NCBI RefSeq assembly: GCF_001938945.1 | Contig: NZ_MKIO01000025.1 | Span: 1-64,000, forward strand | Reading direction: 5' to 3' | Origin: Xaviernesmea rhizosphaerae | GTDB taxonomy: Bacteria; Pseudomonadota; Alphaproteobacteria; Rhizobiales; Rhizobiaceae | Length of the DNA stretch: 64,000 nt | Shown here: piece by piece, positions 1 through 10,143 of the stretch | Position numbering within the stretch: the stretch's first letter is position 1 | Layout of the letters: each line of letters begins with the position of its first letter | Made by a program: the position numbers and the translations under genes | The notes under the pieces: model-generated | Databases searched by the model: none | What the model was told of the DNA's origin: nothing | Seen by the model: the letters and a program-made list of their open reading frames with translations, nothing else

Positions 1-112
1 CCCTGCCGCCGGCCGCCAGACGGTGGCTGCCCAGCAGGCCCGCGTCAAAGGCTTCGCGCTCGATATGGGTGGGCCGGACGACGAAGATTATGAATTCAAG
101 GAGACGGCGTGA
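1..112 (+). CDS. C-terminal end of a probable methyl-accepting chemotaxis protein (partial)
   Basis: An open frame runs in from the left edge and stops at TGA 110-112. The 36 visible residues are an Ala/Gln-rich stretch followed by an acidic tail (DDEDYEF, then KETA). This composition, directly upstream of cheW-cheR-cheB, fits the flexible C-terminal tail of a chemoreceptor; many receptors end in an aromatic-acidic CheR-docking peptide, and DYEF is only loosely like one. The gene body is outside the window, so the family call is mainly contextual. Its stop overlaps a possible GTG start of cheW, so the two genes are probably translated together. Confidence 0.5.
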   Translation, partial: PAAGRQTVAAQQARVKGFALDMGGPDDEDYEFKETA

Positions 113-114
113 TC

Positions 115-609
115 ATGGCAACTGTAACCAATGAATCCCAGTTCGTGACGTTCAGCCTCGGCGATGAGATCTTCGCCGTTCCGGTCGACGTGGTTCGTGA
201 AATCCTCGATTACGAGGATCCCTCGCGCATTCCGCATGGTCCGGCCCATCTCCTCGGCCTGCGCGATGTGCGCGGGCAAGGTGTCCCGATCATCGATCTG
301 CGGGTGCGCCTGGGCATGGACAAGACCGTGCGCACCGCCCACACCCGCATCCTCGTGCTCGACATTCCGCTCGCCGACAAGATGCTGGCGCTCGGGCTGG
401 TGGCCGACAAGGTGTTCGAGGTCGTGCCCTTCCGCCATGATGCGGTGGAAACGGCGCCCGATATCGGCGCCGCCTGGAACTCCGACTACATCCGCGGCGT
501 CGTCCGGCGCACGAATGATTTCGTGATCATCATCGATCTGTCCCGGCTGTTTTCCGACAGCGCTCCGGCACTCTCGGCCGTGGCGCAGCCGTCCAGAGCC
601 GTTGCGTAA
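115..609 (+). CDS. cheW: Chemotaxis coupling protein CheW
   Basis: A 164-residue single CheW domain, the SH3-like adaptor that links chemoreceptors to the kinase CheA in the cytoplasmic signalling array. The N-terminal beta strands (FVTFSLGDEIFAVPV) and the segment with LLGLRDVRGQGVPIIDLR are typical of the family; the length is normal apart from a short Ala/Pro/Arg tail after the domain. AAGGAG at 98-103 lies 11 nt before ATG 115 and 5 nt before an in-frame GTG at 109 that overlaps the upstream stop; either may be used, and I take the ATG. It is followed 14 nt later by cheR in an apparent che operon. Confidence 0.93.
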   Translation: MATVTNESQFVTFSLGDEIFAVPVDVVREILDYEDPSRIPHGPAHLLGLRDVRGQGVPIIDLRVRLGMDKTVRTAHTRILVLDIPLADKMLALGLVADKVFEVVPFRHDAVETAPDIGAAWNSDYIRGVVRRTNDFVIIIDLSRLFSDSAPALSAVAQPSRAVA

Positions 610-623
610 GAAAGCGTATAGAA

Positions 624-1475
624 TTGAGCAACGCAGCCGTTCGCATTTCGCCCGACGACCGCCTGAGCGAGAAAAATTTCAAGCGGTTGGCGGATTTCAT
701 CTTCTCCTATAGCGGCATCAAGATGCCGCCCTCCAAGGCCACCATGCTGGAAGGCCGGCTGCGCCGCCGATTGCGGGCAACCGGCTACCCCAACTTCGAT
801 GCCTATTGCGACTATCTGTTCAAATATGACGGGCTCGAAAGCGAGACCGTGCATCTGATCGATGTCGTGACGACGAACAAGACGGACTTCTTCCGGGAAC
901 CGAACCATTTCGACTTTCTGACCGAAAGGGTGCTGCCGGAATTCACGCAACGCGGTGTGGGCAAGCTGCGTGTGTGGAGTTCGGCCTGCTCTATCGGCGC
1001 CGAGCCCTATACGCTTGCCATGGTGCTGGAGGACTACAGGCAGAAGCAGCGGGGGATGGACTACGGGATCCTCGCCTCGGACCTCTCCACCGATGTTCTG
1101 CAGCGGGCGCGCAAGGGCATCTACACCAGCGACATGATGGTGCCGGTGCCGCAGGAGCTGCGCAAGCGCTATGTGATGAGCGCGATCGATCCGGAGCGGG
1201 ACGAGGTGCGCATCACGCCCGCGCTGCGCGCGCGCGTCGGCTTCATGCGGCTCAACCTCATGGATGCGAGCTATCGCGTCGGCGAGCCGATGCATGTGAT
1301 CTTCTGCCGCAACGTGCTGATCTACTTCGACAAGAAGACGCAGCTGCATGTGCTGACCCAGCTGTGCGAATGCCTGCAGCCGGGCGGCTATCTCTTCATC
1401 GGTCATTCCGAGACGATCGCGGGCATGACCTTGCCGGTGCGCCAGATCGCCAACACCATCTTCATCCGGGAGTAA
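624..1475 (+). CDS. cheR: Chemotaxis protein methyltransferase CheR
   Basis: 283 residues, usual CheR length. It methylates glutamates of chemoreceptors using S-adenosylmethionine and thereby sets adaptation. The N-terminal helical domain comes first ([12 protein letters not shown]), then the SAM-binding domain with [19 protein letters not shown], and the late motif [14 protein letters not shown], which is diagnostic for CheR; the C-terminal [10 protein letters not shown] also matches. The start is TTG at 624, chosen because the protein then begins just before the conserved N-domain; the upstream purine stretch at 607-614 is a weak ribosome site. It lies between cheW and cheB, its natural antagonist. 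Confidence 0.95.
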
Positions 1476-1480
1476 CAGGC

Positions 1481-2590
1481 TTGGGCGGCAAAATTCGCGT
1501 TCTGATCATCGACGATTCCGCAAGCGTCCGGCAGACGCTCACCTCCGTGCTGCAGTCCGATCCGGCGATCGAGGTGATCGGCGCGGCGGCGGATCCCTTC
1601 ATCGCGGCAAAGCGCATTCAGGACGAAGTTCCTGACGTCATCACGCTGGATGTGGAAATGCCGCGCATGGATGGCATCACCTTTCTGCGCAAGCTGATGT
1701 CGCAGCGGCCGATCCCGGTCGTCATGTGCTCGTCCCTGACAGAGGAGGGCACGGAAACGTTGATGCAGGCACTGGAAGCCGGTGCCGTCGACGTGATCCT
1801 GAAGCCAAAGATCGGCGCGGCCGACCATCTCGCCGAACAGGCGCAGCGCATCTGCGAGGTGGTCAAGGGCGCCTCGCAGGCGCGCATCGGCAGCCGCCGC
1901 GTGGCCAGCGCTCGGGCCTCCGGCGCATCGGCTTCGGCGTCGGGCCCGGCGCAAAAGCTCACCGCCGACGTGATGCTGCCGCCGCCGCCCGCCGGCAGGG
2001 CCATGGCCAAGACCACCGAAATGGTCTGCTGCATCGGCGCCTCCACCGGCGGAACCGAGGCACTGCGCGAGCTCCTGGAGCGGCTCCCGGCCAATTCGCC
2101 GGGGATCGTCATTGTCCAGCACATGCCGGAAAAATTCACGGCTGCCTTCGCCAAGCGGTTGAATGGCCTGTGCGAAGTCGAGGTCAAGGAAGCGCAGGAT
2201 GGCGACCCGGTTCTGCGCGGCCATGTGCTGATCGCACCCGGCGACCGGCATATGCTGCTGGAGCGCCAGGGCGCGCGCTATCACGTCTCGGTGCGCGAGG
2301 GGCCCTTGGTCTCGCGCCACCGGCCGTCGGTCGATGTGCTGTTCCGCTCGGCGGCGCGTGCCGCCGGCTCGAATGCCATGGCCGTGATCATGACCGGCAT
2401 GGGCGACGACGGCGCGCGCGGCATGCTGGAGATGAAGCAGGCCGGCGCTTATACCGTGGCGCAGGACGAAGCGACCTCCGTGGTCTTCGGCATGCCGAAG
2501 GAAGCGATCGCCCGCGGCGGCGTCGACAAGATCCTGGGCCTGCCGCTGCTGGCCAGCGAAATCCTGGCGGAGGACCACCGGCGCCGGTGA
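1481..2590 (+). CDS. cheB: Protein-glutamate methylesterase/deamidase CheB
   Basis: 369 residues. The N-terminal receiver domain carries the acidic pocket (Asp11, Asp12), the phospho-acceptor Asp57 in [10 protein letters not shown] and Lys109 in ILKPK. A Ser/Ala-rich linker (about 131-175) leads to the methylesterase domain with the Ser188 (GASTGG), His214 (QHMPEKFT), Asp310 region (TGMGDDG) triad. Phosphorylated CheB removes receptor methyl groups added by CheR. Start is TTG 1481, with GGGAG at 1468-1472 eight nt upstream, five nt after the cheR stop. The reading frame extends far upstream through cheR, but those residues are out-of-frame cheR sequence. Confidence 0.95.
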
Positions 2591-2682
2591 CGCGGGCACG
2601 GGGCGCTCGTCAGAGCACGAACGAAGCGCGGCCGGCGGTTCAGCGCAGTCCCACGCCATCGGCGAAACCAGAGCGTCCGCAG

Positions 2683-2720
2683 ACGACAAAGCCCGGCTGG
2701 GAACGGCCGGGCTTTGTCGT
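2683..2720 (+). terminator. Strong hairpin terminator after the che genes
   Basis: A perfect 15-bp stem (2683-2697 with 2706-2720) closes an 8-nt loop about 90 nt after the cheB stop. The arm contains ACAAAGCCCGGC and its exact complement; the 3' arm ends in CTTTGTCGT, a short T-rich end. It should end the che transcript and separates it from the ParA-like gene. In the rest of the 2591-2943 gap I see only GGAGG a few bases before the next start. Confidence 0.75.
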
Positions 2721-2943
2721 GCCAGATCCACCCGGATCCGTCCCCTCGCCCCTGCCCTCCTCGGCCCCGCCCGACAGGCCTCTGCTCTTTTGGTGCCTGC
2801 CACCACCGTCCGTCTGGAACCAGCCCGGATTCGACTGTTAAGCCTCGCGTAACCATGAAGGTCGAGAATTGGTGCAGCACCATGACATCGGGTGCGCTTG
2901 CAAGCGAGCATGATTGACTTGCTGATCGAGACTGGAGGCCGGC

Positions 2944-3636
2944 ATGCCCACGATCACCTTCGCCAACACCAAGGGCGGCGCCGGAAAGACCACGGCGGTG
3001 CTGCTGCTGGCCACTGAATTCGTTCGCCGCGGCTATCGGATCTGCATCGTGGACACCGATCCGCAAAGATGGATCTCGCGCTGGTTCGAGGCGGCGCAAC
3101 CGCATGACAATCTCACGGTCGCGACCTTCGTTTCGCTCGCCTCGCTGCAGCGGACCATCCAGCAATATCAGACGAGCTGCGACTATATCATCGTCGACCT
3201 GCCCGGCGCACAGTCCCCCTTGCTCGCCACGGCGCTCGGCATGTCCGACCATGTGATGATCCCGATCCAGGGCAGCTCCATGGACGCGCAGGGCGGCGCC
3301 CAGGTGATCGAGCTTCTGAGCTATCTGGATCGGAAGGCCAACATCACCATTGCGCATTCCGTCGTGCTTTCCCGCGTCAACCCCATGGTGACGACGCGCG
3401 CTTTGCTCGCCGTCAAGGCGCTGCTGGCCGAGCGTTCGGTCAACCTGCTGCAGACCCCGATCATCGAGCGCGCAGCCTTCCGCGACATGTTCGAATACGG
3501 GGTTTTCCTGCATCAGATGCAGCCGGAACGGGTCAGCAACCTGGCAAAGGCGATCCAGAACGCCGAGAGCTTTGCCGACGAAGTCGAGCGCCTGGTGCCG
3601 CTGACATCGCGCACCCGCGCCGCCAGCGCTGCCTGA
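2944..3636 (+). CDS. Orphan ParA/MinD-family ATPase, VirC1-like
   Basis: 230 residues beginning with a deviant Walker A loop (TKGGAGKTT, Lys10 and Lys15), then Walker A-prime DTDP near residue 38 and a Walker B-like IIVDLPG. These define the ParA/MinD family of DNA- or membrane-positioning ATPases. No ParB partner is adjacent. The C-terminal motif with ERAAFRDMFEYG resembles that of Agrobacterium VirC1, an orphan ParA that recruits T-DNA transfer complexes; chromosomal VirC1-like genes of unknown role occur in rhizobia. GGAGG sits just before ATG 2944. It follows a chemotaxis cluster but is separated from it by a terminator, so a role in positioning chemoreceptor arrays is possible and unproven. 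Confidence 0.85.
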   Translation: MPTITFANTKGGAGKTTAVLLLATEFVRRGYRICIVDTDPQRWISRWFEAAQPHDNLTVATFVSLASLQRTIQQYQTSCDYIIVDLPGAQSPLLATALGMSDHVMIPIQGSSMDAQGGAQVIELLSYLDRKANITIAHSVVLSRVNPMVTTRALLAVKALLAERSVNLLQTPIIERAAFRDMFEYGVFLHQMQPERVSNLAKAIQNAESFADEVERLVPLTSRTRAASAA

Positions 3637-8230: not shown

Positions 8231-8406
8231 ACGCGTGTCACACCTCGTTGCCCGGCAGGCGATACGACAGGAACTGCAAACAATTTATCGGAAGTTCTCA
8301 GCGGCCCGCTAACTCTTCTTGTCGCTCCAATGATTGAATGCGCTTTCGTTTACCGGTGGTTTTTGAATATCCCCTAGGATGCATCCGTTAACGACGGAGT
8401 GTCATC

Positions 8407-10143
8407 GTGTTTGCAGCCGCACGCAGAAATGAACTTGGATCTTACGGTCCGCGTGTGACGCTTCTTGAAAAGCTGTCCGCATCCCATGCGCGGATCGAGC
8501 AGTGCTTCCTCAAGGCTGGCGAGACGCTGGTTTCGGTGATGGAGATCGTCGGCGCGCTCGTCAGCGCGCTGGACCAGTTCACCAGCTCGCTCGGCGGCGA
8601 CGCGATCAAGGACACGATCGCCGACCTGCGCAAGTCCGTGGCCGATCTGGCGTCCCTGCCGGAAACGGCGGCGGCGCGCCAGAAGGCTTTTGACGATATC
8701 GCCCAACTGTGCGCCCAGACAGTCCTTCAGGTGGAGGACATGCGCGAGACCTTCCGTTATCTGCGCACTTTCGCCATCTCGGTGAAGATCACCGGCGCCG
8801 GCATCGATGAATTTGCCGGTTTCGCCGACGAGATCCGCGAGCGCATCCAGTCCGGCGCGCGCGAAATCGACAGTTTCGCCCAGCAGCTCGGCGCGATGAA
8901 CGGCGAACTGGGCAAGGCCAAGAACTTTGCCGATGGCGTTCTGAGCGATTTCCAGGCGACCATTCCCGCCATCATTGCCAGCCTGGACCGCAGCGCCCTT
9001 CTCCTGGCGCAGGAGCGCAAGGAAATGTCGGCGATCGCCGACGATGTCCGCCACACCGCCAATCAGGTCCAGAGCAAGATCGCCTCGGTGCTTTCGGCCC
9101 TGCAGATCGGCGACATCACGCGCCAGCGCATCGAGCATGTCCGGGACTCCTTCAAGATTACGGAAGAGTTTACCGCCTCGACCGACGGACGATCGCTGAC
9201 GCCCGAGGAGCGCTGGGATATCGAACGCGCGGTCTTCGCGCTGGCCGTGGCGCAGATCGACCAGATGCTCGAGGATTTCCGCGAGAAGAGCGCCAGCATT
9301 TCCTCGATCATCGCCAGCTTCGCCCAGGATGCGACGCAGATGCTCTCCCAGCGCGAAAGGCTCGGCTCCTTCAGCGCCAATGCCGACAAGAACGTGCTCA
9401 AGGCCATGGAGCGCGATATCGGCCATGCCTCGACGCTGGCCGTCGATATCCAGGCGCGGGGAAGCGAATCGGATAAGCTCGTCGCACGTGTCAGCGAATC
9501 GGTGCAGGCCCTCCTGAGCGGCATTGATGTCGTGCGCGGTATCAAGACCGACATTCACTATATGGCGCTCAATTCCAACCTGCGCTGCTCGCGCCTCGGC
9601 GATGCCGGCCGCGCCGTCAACGTGGTCAGCGGCGAGTTGCGGACCTTTGCAGGGCGCCTGGAAGACCCGGCCAATGCGTTGATGGCCGGCATGCAGGCGG
9701 TCAAGGCGGTGGCGGGCAGCCTGCTCGTCACCCATGAGGACGGTCGGGCCCATGACGTGGTTCTGCCGCTGCGCGAGGCACTCGAAGCGATCAAGGCAGC
9801 CTCGCAATCCATGGATGCCGGCCTTCGGGACGTCACCGAGCAGGGCGGCGCCGTGTTCGGCCGCATCATGGCCGCCGTCAAGTCGCTCGACTTTGAAAGC
9901 CAGCTTGGCGCGGTCCTGGCCGACTCAGCCGACATCGCCCGGAAGGTGATGGAACAGCAGGGTGTTCCCGACCAGCTGCCGCCCGTGGCGGAGATCGTCG
10001 GCAGCAAGATCTTCGCCATTTACACCATGGTGCAGGAACGGCAGATCCATATCGCCATCCTCCCCGGCAGCACGCTGGAGGCCGCAGCAGAGGCGCCGGC
10101 CGCGCAGAGCGACGACGATTTCCTGGAGGACGCGCTGTTCTAA
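8407..10143 (+). CDS. Soluble MCP-like protein with two DxxxQ helices and a CheZ-like C-terminus
   Basis: 578 residues, almost entirely helical, no membrane segment or signal peptide, so cytoplasmic. Residues 386-412 (MALNSNLRCSRLGDAGRAVN and VVSGELR) match the hairpin tip of chemoreceptor signalling domains. A degenerate counterpart lies at 121-146 (TFAISVKITG...FADEIR). Each is followed about 110 residues later by a DxxxQ helix: LQIGDITRQRIEHV (Asp236, Gln240) and LDFESQLGAV (Asp495, Gln499). CheZ phosphatase uses Asp and Gln in this spacing (QDLTGQ). The last residues, DDFLEDALF, resemble the E. coli CheZ tail DDLLDSLGF that binds CheY. Start is GTG 8407 with GGAG seven nt upstream. No close family is known to me; a CheY-P phosphatase or a receptor-like scaffold are both possible. 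Confidence 0.6.
   Translation: MFAAARRNELGSYGPRVTLLEKLSASHARIEQCFLKAGETLVSVMEIVGALVSALDQFTSSLGGDAIKDTIADLRKSVADLASLPETAAARQKAFDDIAQLCAQTVLQVEDMRETFRYLRTFAISVKITGAGIDEFAGFADEIRERIQSGAREIDSFAQQLGAMNGELGKAKNFADGVLSDFQATIPAIIASLDRSALLLAQERKEMSAIADDVRHTANQVQSKIASVLSALQIGDITRQRIEHVRDSFKITEEFTASTDGRSLTPEERWDIERAVFALAVAQIDQMLEDFREKSASISSIIASFAQDATQMLSQRERLGSFSANADKNVLKAMERDIGHASTLAVDIQARGSESDKLVARVSESVQALLSGIDVVRGIKTDIHYMALNSNLRCSRLGDAGRAVNVVSGELRTFAGRLEDPANALMAGMQAVKAVAGSLLVTHEDGRAHDVVLPLREALEAIKAASQSMDAGLRDVTEQGGAVFGRIMAAVKSLDFESQLGAVLADSADIARKVMEQQGVPDQLPPVAEIVGSKIFAIYTMVQERQIHIAILPGSTLEAAAEAPAAQSDDDFLEDALF

Follow-up and report, generated by a model that had tools for sequence, protein, structure and literature searches.

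The active-site aspartate and glutamine of CheZ position the attacking water. According to the portions of PMC7750401 available to us, CheZ has a DXXXQ motif, an AXXFQ motif next to it and, at the C terminus, a conserved region that binds CheY, and a CheZ has been described in Azorhizobium. A DXXXQ motif and CheY dephosphorylation are attributed to S. meliloti CheT in the accessible part of PMC12654446, where signal flow in this organism is presented as being under the control of a number of accessory proteins, CheS and CheT among them. With both proteins described, the premise of an earlier sequence-only reading of our locus, that rhizobia have no CheZ-type phosphatase, is outdated. In R. sphaeroides, CheA3 dephosphorylates CheY6 only (PMC10924463, PMC2924250; both seen in excerpt). 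The sections of PMC2924250 at hand, which reflect the state of knowledge in 2010, report no CheZ homologue in this organism and no known phosphatase for any regulator except CheY6, and hence none for CheY3-P and CheY4-P.

A described protein of similar kind to the one analysed here is probably TlpC of R. sphaeroides, which for two decades has been investigated as an unusual receptor. As far as the consulted passages go, TlpC has 580 residues, lacks a membrane region, a methylation region and the glycine turn, is encoded in cheOp2, resides in the cytoplasmic cluster and binds CheA3 and CheW4, with no clear role (PMC3964821, PMC6829392). Excerpts of the same literature locate it apart from its own operon's polar cluster (PMC6829392, PMC10924463) and report that its deletion leads to a diffuse cluster (PMC6829392), while a review, seen in part, ties it to CheA4 instead (PMC10924463).

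We analysed a stretch of 64,000 nucleotides (the window) from the Rhizobiaceae genome of Xaviernesmea rhizosphaerae, which encodes a receptor-like protein, P0001, with the following features:

8407..10143, + strand: gene of the 578-residue receptor-like protein P0001 (open reading frame, translation, homologues)
8767..8844, + strand: receptor-hairpin-like block of the first half, residues 121-146, with a degenerate sequence and its turn near 130-133 (N-half model, chemoreceptor fold matches, half-to-half pairing)
9100..9138, + strand: CheZ-type helix LQIGDITRQRIEH, residues 232-244, with D236 and Q240 (conservation, register with the CheZ D and Q)
9562..9642, + strand: receptor-hairpin block of the second half, residues 386-412, with its turn near 397 (sub-threshold Pfam MCPsignal match at 358-434, N389 in 145/145, model)
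9889..9903, + strand: second DxxxQ, residues 495-499, proposed by the sequence-only reading, not conserved (both residues in 3/145)
10021..10050, + strand: family signature YTMxxERxxH, residues 539-548 (conservation in 145 homologues)
10105..10140, + strand: C-terminal tail SDDDFLEDALF, acidic and hydrophobic, preceded by a linker of low model confidence (tail statistics, CheZ tails)

The frame starts with GTG, just downstream of an ACGGAG. The open reading frame was confirmed as first proposed; P0001 is probably soluble, because its highest 19-residue hydropathy mean is 1.57 (in the 145 sequences, 32 reach at least 1.6, with a maximum of 1.89). Homologue searches placed P0001 in a large alphaproteobacterial family, mostly without a name. 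In annotated plasmid records its products are called hypothetical protein (Sphingomonas, Methylosinus) or chemotaxis protein (Agrobacterium), and two Shinella records label the product a type VII secretion target.

D236 and Q240 of the first DxxxQ helix are kept in all 65 homologues found by profile or sequence search without the motif, and in 145/145 once 80 loci fetched by a motif-containing pattern are included; these 80 cannot test the motif, whereas the 65 can. The 145 sequences comprise 45 from alignments A2 and A3, 20 from Rhodobacteraceae and the 80 loci matching GDx[TA]RQR[ILV]EH, a pattern for which 539 of 597 stretches among the matches listed encode relatives. Strong matches were sampled (30 loci from the order survey and 20 from the Rhodobacteraceae survey). 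All 26 loci of one set carry the motif, five of which (L064, L069, L077, L078, L081) were left out of A2, and one of 24 loci in another set (L209) was left out for length. The latter (L209 1456-2610) lies behind cheB in genome G771; this homologue has LQIHDITRQRLEH in its N half, and its frame stops in the second half. Q233, D236, Q240 and R241 are invariant in alignments of 12, 33, 29 and 145 sequences, G235, R239, E243 and H244 almost never vary among the 145, and the aspartate and glutamine are retained even in homologues at 16-17% identity. Six columns in total are invariant across the 145 homologues, D236 and Q240 among them. This is firmer than what had been claimed for the site from the sequence alone. 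The hairpin residues are less constant (R412 in 128/145, G401 in 136/145), and in the Rhodobacteraceae the hairpin glycines are degenerate while both D and Q are intact in 20/20 members. The YTMxxERxxH signature near the C terminus is conserved almost as well as the DxxxQ helix (R545 in 145/145, Y539 and E544 each in 144/145, H548 in 143/145) and also occurs in the single-module relatives described below.

The second DxxxQ, which had been put forward as an equivalent site, did not hold. D495 and Q499 occur together in 3/145 sequences, position 499 is mostly D (53/145) or E (42/145), and the half-to-half alignment sets D495 opposite Q233, three residues off D236. As a conserved family site it was rejected, and because of its rarity and its register the second DxxxQ module appears to be a remnant at best. 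Of the duplicated hairpin-plus-DxxxQ module originally proposed, the duplication of the hairpin thus stands, while the second DxxxQ does not in the sequences of today.

Evidence for two receptor-type halves came from profiles and models. The C half matches Pfam MCPsignal (PF00015) over residues 358-434 with 25.2 bits, below the curated cut-off of 34.6; the N half has no MCPsignal sequence match in the Pfam search, and 27 of 29 family members match the profile at E <= 10. A model of the whole protein built from 12 sequences (mean pLDDT 82, pTM 0.55) shows helices up to turns at 130-133 and 397, and an N-half model built from 25 sequences (pLDDT 87, pTM 0.50) shows helices at 65-129 and 134-257. 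All ten PDB chains that match the N-half model at E <= 0.001 belong to chemoreceptor entries, two of these entries being integrative models. A second aligner gave Tsr (Z 13.3, rmsd 3.7, 256 aligned residues) and 2ch7 (Z 12.9) for the same model, with unrelated coiled coils scoring close to the receptors (4ilo, Z 13.4; Smc, Z 12.8). The whole-protein model had no PDB match at E <= 0.001; its best matches were TTYH, condensin-like and pore-toxin helical bundles, and E. coli Tsr reached Z 8.9 on residues 258-522. Models and PDB comparison thus assign P0001 the helical hairpin fold of chemoreceptors, with Z values near those of unrelated coiled coils. The hairpin-like blocks predicted in both halves were borne out, the C-terminal one by the sub-threshold MCPsignal match and the N-terminal one by chemoreceptor structures. 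CheZ is absent among the PDB matches listed for the whole-protein and N-half models.

Aligned with each other, the two halves pair over 184 columns, hairpin with hairpin (hhalign, probability 80%, P 1.4e-5). The score was reached by 0/60 block shuffles and 0/60 column shuffles, and reversed profiles scored 25.6 and 27.2 against 44.5. Judged from these profiles, the internal duplication suspected from the even spacing of the modules is real.

Likeness of the first DxxxQ helix to the active helix of CheZ was weak in score and exact in register. An N-half profile gave 46 ungapped columns against 22 CheZ sequences from its own order (hhalign, P 1.8e-4, probability 48%); the D and the Q of one fall on those of the other, with ALQIGDITRQRIEHV opposite helices of the type EACNFQDITGQRI, and none of 60 block shuffles reached the score. 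For a shorter active segment, with Rhodobacteraceae and single-module sequences added, P was 5e-5 to 6e-5 and 0/100 controls reached the score; across comparisons of the family with CheZ, the hhalign probability was 39-67%. A profile of the CheZ active helix run over 11,773 ORFs, which came from loci gathered for this question and are in many cases redundant, ranked the 33 CheZ ORFs first, followed uninterrupted by 83 ORFs of the P0001 family with weak E-values (0.001 to 0.67) before the first other protein (E 0.67). The reverse search with the family profile was weak, retrieving 2/33 CheZ ORFs in the same collection (E 0.03 and 0.05). The resemblance suggested earlier is therefore supported by a register shared with the CheZ D and Q and by a score that is weak yet beyond all shuffles. 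Pfam CheZ (PF04344) did not match P0001 at E <= 10, nor was it among the best 25 of 104 families matched by 29 family members. By profile and fold, P0001 lies outside the CheZ sequence family.

A second CheZ-like element is found at the C terminus. In 143/145 sequences one of the final two residues is F, L, M or W, and the last 14 residues contain 4.8 acidic ones on average. Family tails such as DDFLEDALF, DEDIDDALF and DDLDDILF resemble the CheZ tails SQDDIDALF and, in E. coli, VDDLLDSLGF. In the P0001 model the tail forms a short helix (569-577) with pLDDT below 50, behind a linker that is probably flexible. From these similarities we infer that the tail is a CheZ-like CheY-binding peptide.

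In the window, the gene lies near part of a second che cluster:

109..609, + strand: cheW of the second che cluster (homologous cluster comparison)
624..1475, + strand: cheR of the second che cluster (homologous cluster comparison)
1493..2590, + strand: cheB of the second che cluster (start approximate, open frame from 974; counterpart in L021 at 1121-2221)
2944..3636, + strand: parA-like gene of the che cluster (adjoins the P0001 gene in L021, L253 and L095)

Here proS, lolC and lolD separate the P0001 gene from the cheW-cheR-cheB-parA segment (109-3636), leaving cheB 5.8 kb away. The block proS-lolC-lolD-P0001 (4759-10143) is inverted relative to L021 of the same-genus genome G001, in which the P0001 gene adjoins parA of the che cluster. 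The CheY, CheA and CheW genes of the second cluster are located at the end of another contig of the same genome (L235 9380-13259). The cluster is divided between two contig ends, with the break at receptor genes.

Among 43 loci, each from a different genome or record, 39 have the family gene beside che genes. It immediately follows cheB on the same strand in 26, is convergent on parA behind cheB in three, adjoins the STAS-cheY-cheA end of the cluster in nine and lies among receptor genes near che genes in one; a che core gene beside it is absent in the remaining four. The usual order is (STAS)-CheY-CheA-CheW-MCP-CheW-CheR-CheB followed by the family gene, and no CheZ was recognised in the 43 locus stretches with three CheZ references. 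In one of the four exceptions (L022), a single-domain receiver gene (8385-8780) lies about 290 bp upstream of the isolated family member. In R. leguminosarum the corresponding gene (L159) is adjacent to Che2, at its cheY end. As stated in the available part of PMC7617929, Che2 (RL4036-RL4028) is of class F8, and its mutant is slightly affected in swimming and altered in nodule maturation.

Family members occur in Rhizobiaceae, Rhodobacteraceae and Sphingomonadaceae and in Azospirillum and Methylosinus. P0001 alone as query confirmed no relative in a first scan of genome contigs. Strong homologues (at least 173 bits) are present in 50/397 genomes of the order, and near-full-length homologues (at least 130 bits) in 21/295 Rhodobacteraceae genomes. 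Two Rhodobacteraceae loci (L275 and L277) read CheY-CheA-CheW-CheW-CheR-CheB and then a family member of 549 and 575 aa, respectively, an order that we take to be that of R. sphaeroides cheOp2. Both members share with TlpC the place after cheB, a size of about 580 aa and the lack of a membrane part. Position and size, as given in published descriptions, suggest that TlpC itself belongs to the P0001 family.

Among Rhizobiaceae, at least two CheA were found in 15/18 genomes with the gene versus 1/37 without it (Fisher p 1e-9, a value that ignores kinship among these related genomes, 26 of the 37 having been searched with a single sequence only). Three Rhizobium-like genomes (G222, G316, G430) keep the gene with one CheA found, because of which the family gene may also serve the main chemotaxis system. 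Searches of the P0001 genome for CheZ, CheC and CheX gave no match, and none of 37 Rhizobiaceae passed the CheZ cut-off (one weak match, G006). In the order as a whole, CheZ matches occur in 232/397 genomes, 224 of them above the cut-off. The 50 genomes with a strong homologue divide evenly into 25 with and 25 without a CheZ match, split by family, and six of the 25 with both that were checked have two or three CheA each. General mutual exclusion of the P0001 family and CheZ was consequently rejected, which also speaks against simple replacement.

An origin from a receptor predicts single-module intermediates, and such proteins exist just upstream of CheY in three small alphaproteobacterial genomes:

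L214 1273-2391: single-module receptor-like ORF, upstream of CheY
L288 and L289 (ORF from 1252): single-module receptor-like ORFs, upstream of CheY

They combine a hydrophobic N terminus, a canonical receptor hairpin, the motif [LM]QFQDRxKQR (helix type LQFQDRxKQRLEH), YTM and a CheZ-like tail, NIDLF or NIELF; the L214 protein scores 99 bits with MCPsignal. Among 162 non-family ORFs with the receptor hairpin pattern, only L214 has both motifs, and a looser pattern added one further, chance-like match. These proteins strengthen the receptor-derived origin suggested earlier and point to an order of events in which a receptor would have gained the site and then duplicated. The second aligner placed D236 near Tsr 490-495, which we take to be the second methylation helix.

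On balance, we regard it as probable that P0001 serves the second (Che2-type) cluster as a CheY-P phosphatase, soluble and derived from a receptor, with a CheZ-like action. The tail would dock on phosphorylated CheY of the same cluster, like the C-terminal peptide of CheZ, and bring CheY-P to the D236/Q240 helix, whose two residues would position the attacking water as in CheZ. The second half has lost the site and retained the receptor fold; through it the enzyme could be positioned within the receptor-CheW-CheA array, where signal decay would then be tuned or localised. For this assignment we count the invariant D236/Q240, the CheZ register, the ranking of family ORFs directly after CheZ by the active-helix profile, the CheZ-like tails, the che linkage, the CheA count and the single-module intermediates, along with the lack of CheZ, CheC and CheX matches in the P0001 genome; phosphatase activity would follow if the conserved pair acts as in CheZ. 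Against it we count the weak CheZ profile scores, the Pfam CheZ miss, the absence of CheZ among the PDB matches listed, the presence of CheZ in 25/50 genomes and the three Rhizobium genomes with the gene and one CheA. A CheT-like gene follows cheD in the main che operon of the P0001 genome (L236 14312-14704, 130 aa; LQGIDLAVQK, end DMEFF, one sequence judged by eye) and might serve both chemotaxis systems, which would also weigh against a phosphatase role for P0001.

In receptors, CheA and CheW bind at the hairpin. One rival reading is a non-catalytic protein, either a degenerate chemoreceptor of the cytoplasm or an array scaffold, in which the helix is structural or docks CheA/CheW and its DxxxQ is convergent; this would explain the receptor fold of both halves. 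It would also suit TlpC, probably a protein of the same kind, whose location fits a receptor or scaffold as does its interaction with CheA3 and CheW4, and whose deletion leaves the cluster diffuse (PMC6829392, in the part available). Under such a role, however, the hairpin should not vary far more than the DxxxQ helix, as it does at R412 and G401 and in the degenerate Rhodobacteraceae hairpins; a plain scaffold also gives the CheZ-like tail no role, and the conserved signature contains exactly the catalytic pair. We consider this explanation unlikely, though worth keeping in view. Less likely again is a CheY-P-binding adaptor or sink, whose tail and helix would bind CheY-P, with D and Q substituting for contacts and hydrolysis no faster, and so localise or buffer it: the tail and the CheY linkage agree with such a role, for which accessory proteins such as CheS and CheT of S. 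meliloti (PMC12654446, seen in part) offer a parallel, but retention of both D and Q in 65/65 homologues is beyond what binding alone should require. Two active phosphatase sites, one in each half, as the sequence-only reading had it, we hold to be highly improbable; the half-to-half duplication is real and P0001 itself has both D495 and Q499, but the 3/145 count already refutes this arrangement for the family as a whole, and the prevalent D or E at 499 and the shifted register add to it.

If P0001 is a phosphatase, its family may be an overlooked off-switch for the second chemotaxis system of many alphaproteobacteria. The way in which many alphaproteobacteria terminate the CheY-P signal has been unclear, and a duplicated receptor scaffold that carries a CheZ-type site bears on this. 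We tentatively extend the proposal, at somewhat less than an even chance, to Che2/F8-type alphaproteobacterial systems in general: these would use a receptor turned CheY-P phosphatase, arisen from a single-module receptor by duplication and loss of the second site, and TlpC would be the phosphatase in question, with CheY3-P and CheY4-P as possible substrates. What has been treated as a receptor would then be an enzyme, and CheZ chemistry would have arisen on, or moved to, a receptor fold. We found no published description of a receptor-derived protein with a CheZ-type site in the literature covered, which was seen in part and is thin on subscription journals.

Compared with known systems, P0001 shares with CheZ (PF04344, including Azorhizobium CheZ) the DxxxQ(R) active-site helix, recognisable by conservation and register, a similar acidic, hydrophobic tail and the location in a che operon. 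CheZ is, however, a short protein of about 200 aa forming one four-helix-bundle dimer, which P0001 with 578 aa and two receptor-type hairpins is not; P0001 also lacks a Pfam CheZ match, and its profile likeness is confined to about 45 residues. Chemoreceptors of the MCPsignal type (PF00015) resemble P0001 in the two hairpins, recognised by fold or profile, whereas P0001 is below the Pfam cut-off, duplicated and probably soluble, and carries the CheZ-type helix and tail. With S. meliloti Che1 CheT, for which CheY dephosphorylation is reported (PMC12654446, in the portion seen), the likeness is the DXXXQ motif; the CheT-like protein differs in its 130 aa, its place in the main operon after cheD and its lack of a receptor hairpin. 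CheA3 offers a precedent as a non-CheZ protein that acquired CheY dephosphorylation, but is a split CheA whose internal domain is long. TlpC is described in the accessible sources as a receptor, not a phosphatase, and a DxxxQ in it is a prediction, yet in size (580 aa), in the absence of a membrane part and a methylation region, and in its cheOp2 location it is like P0001.
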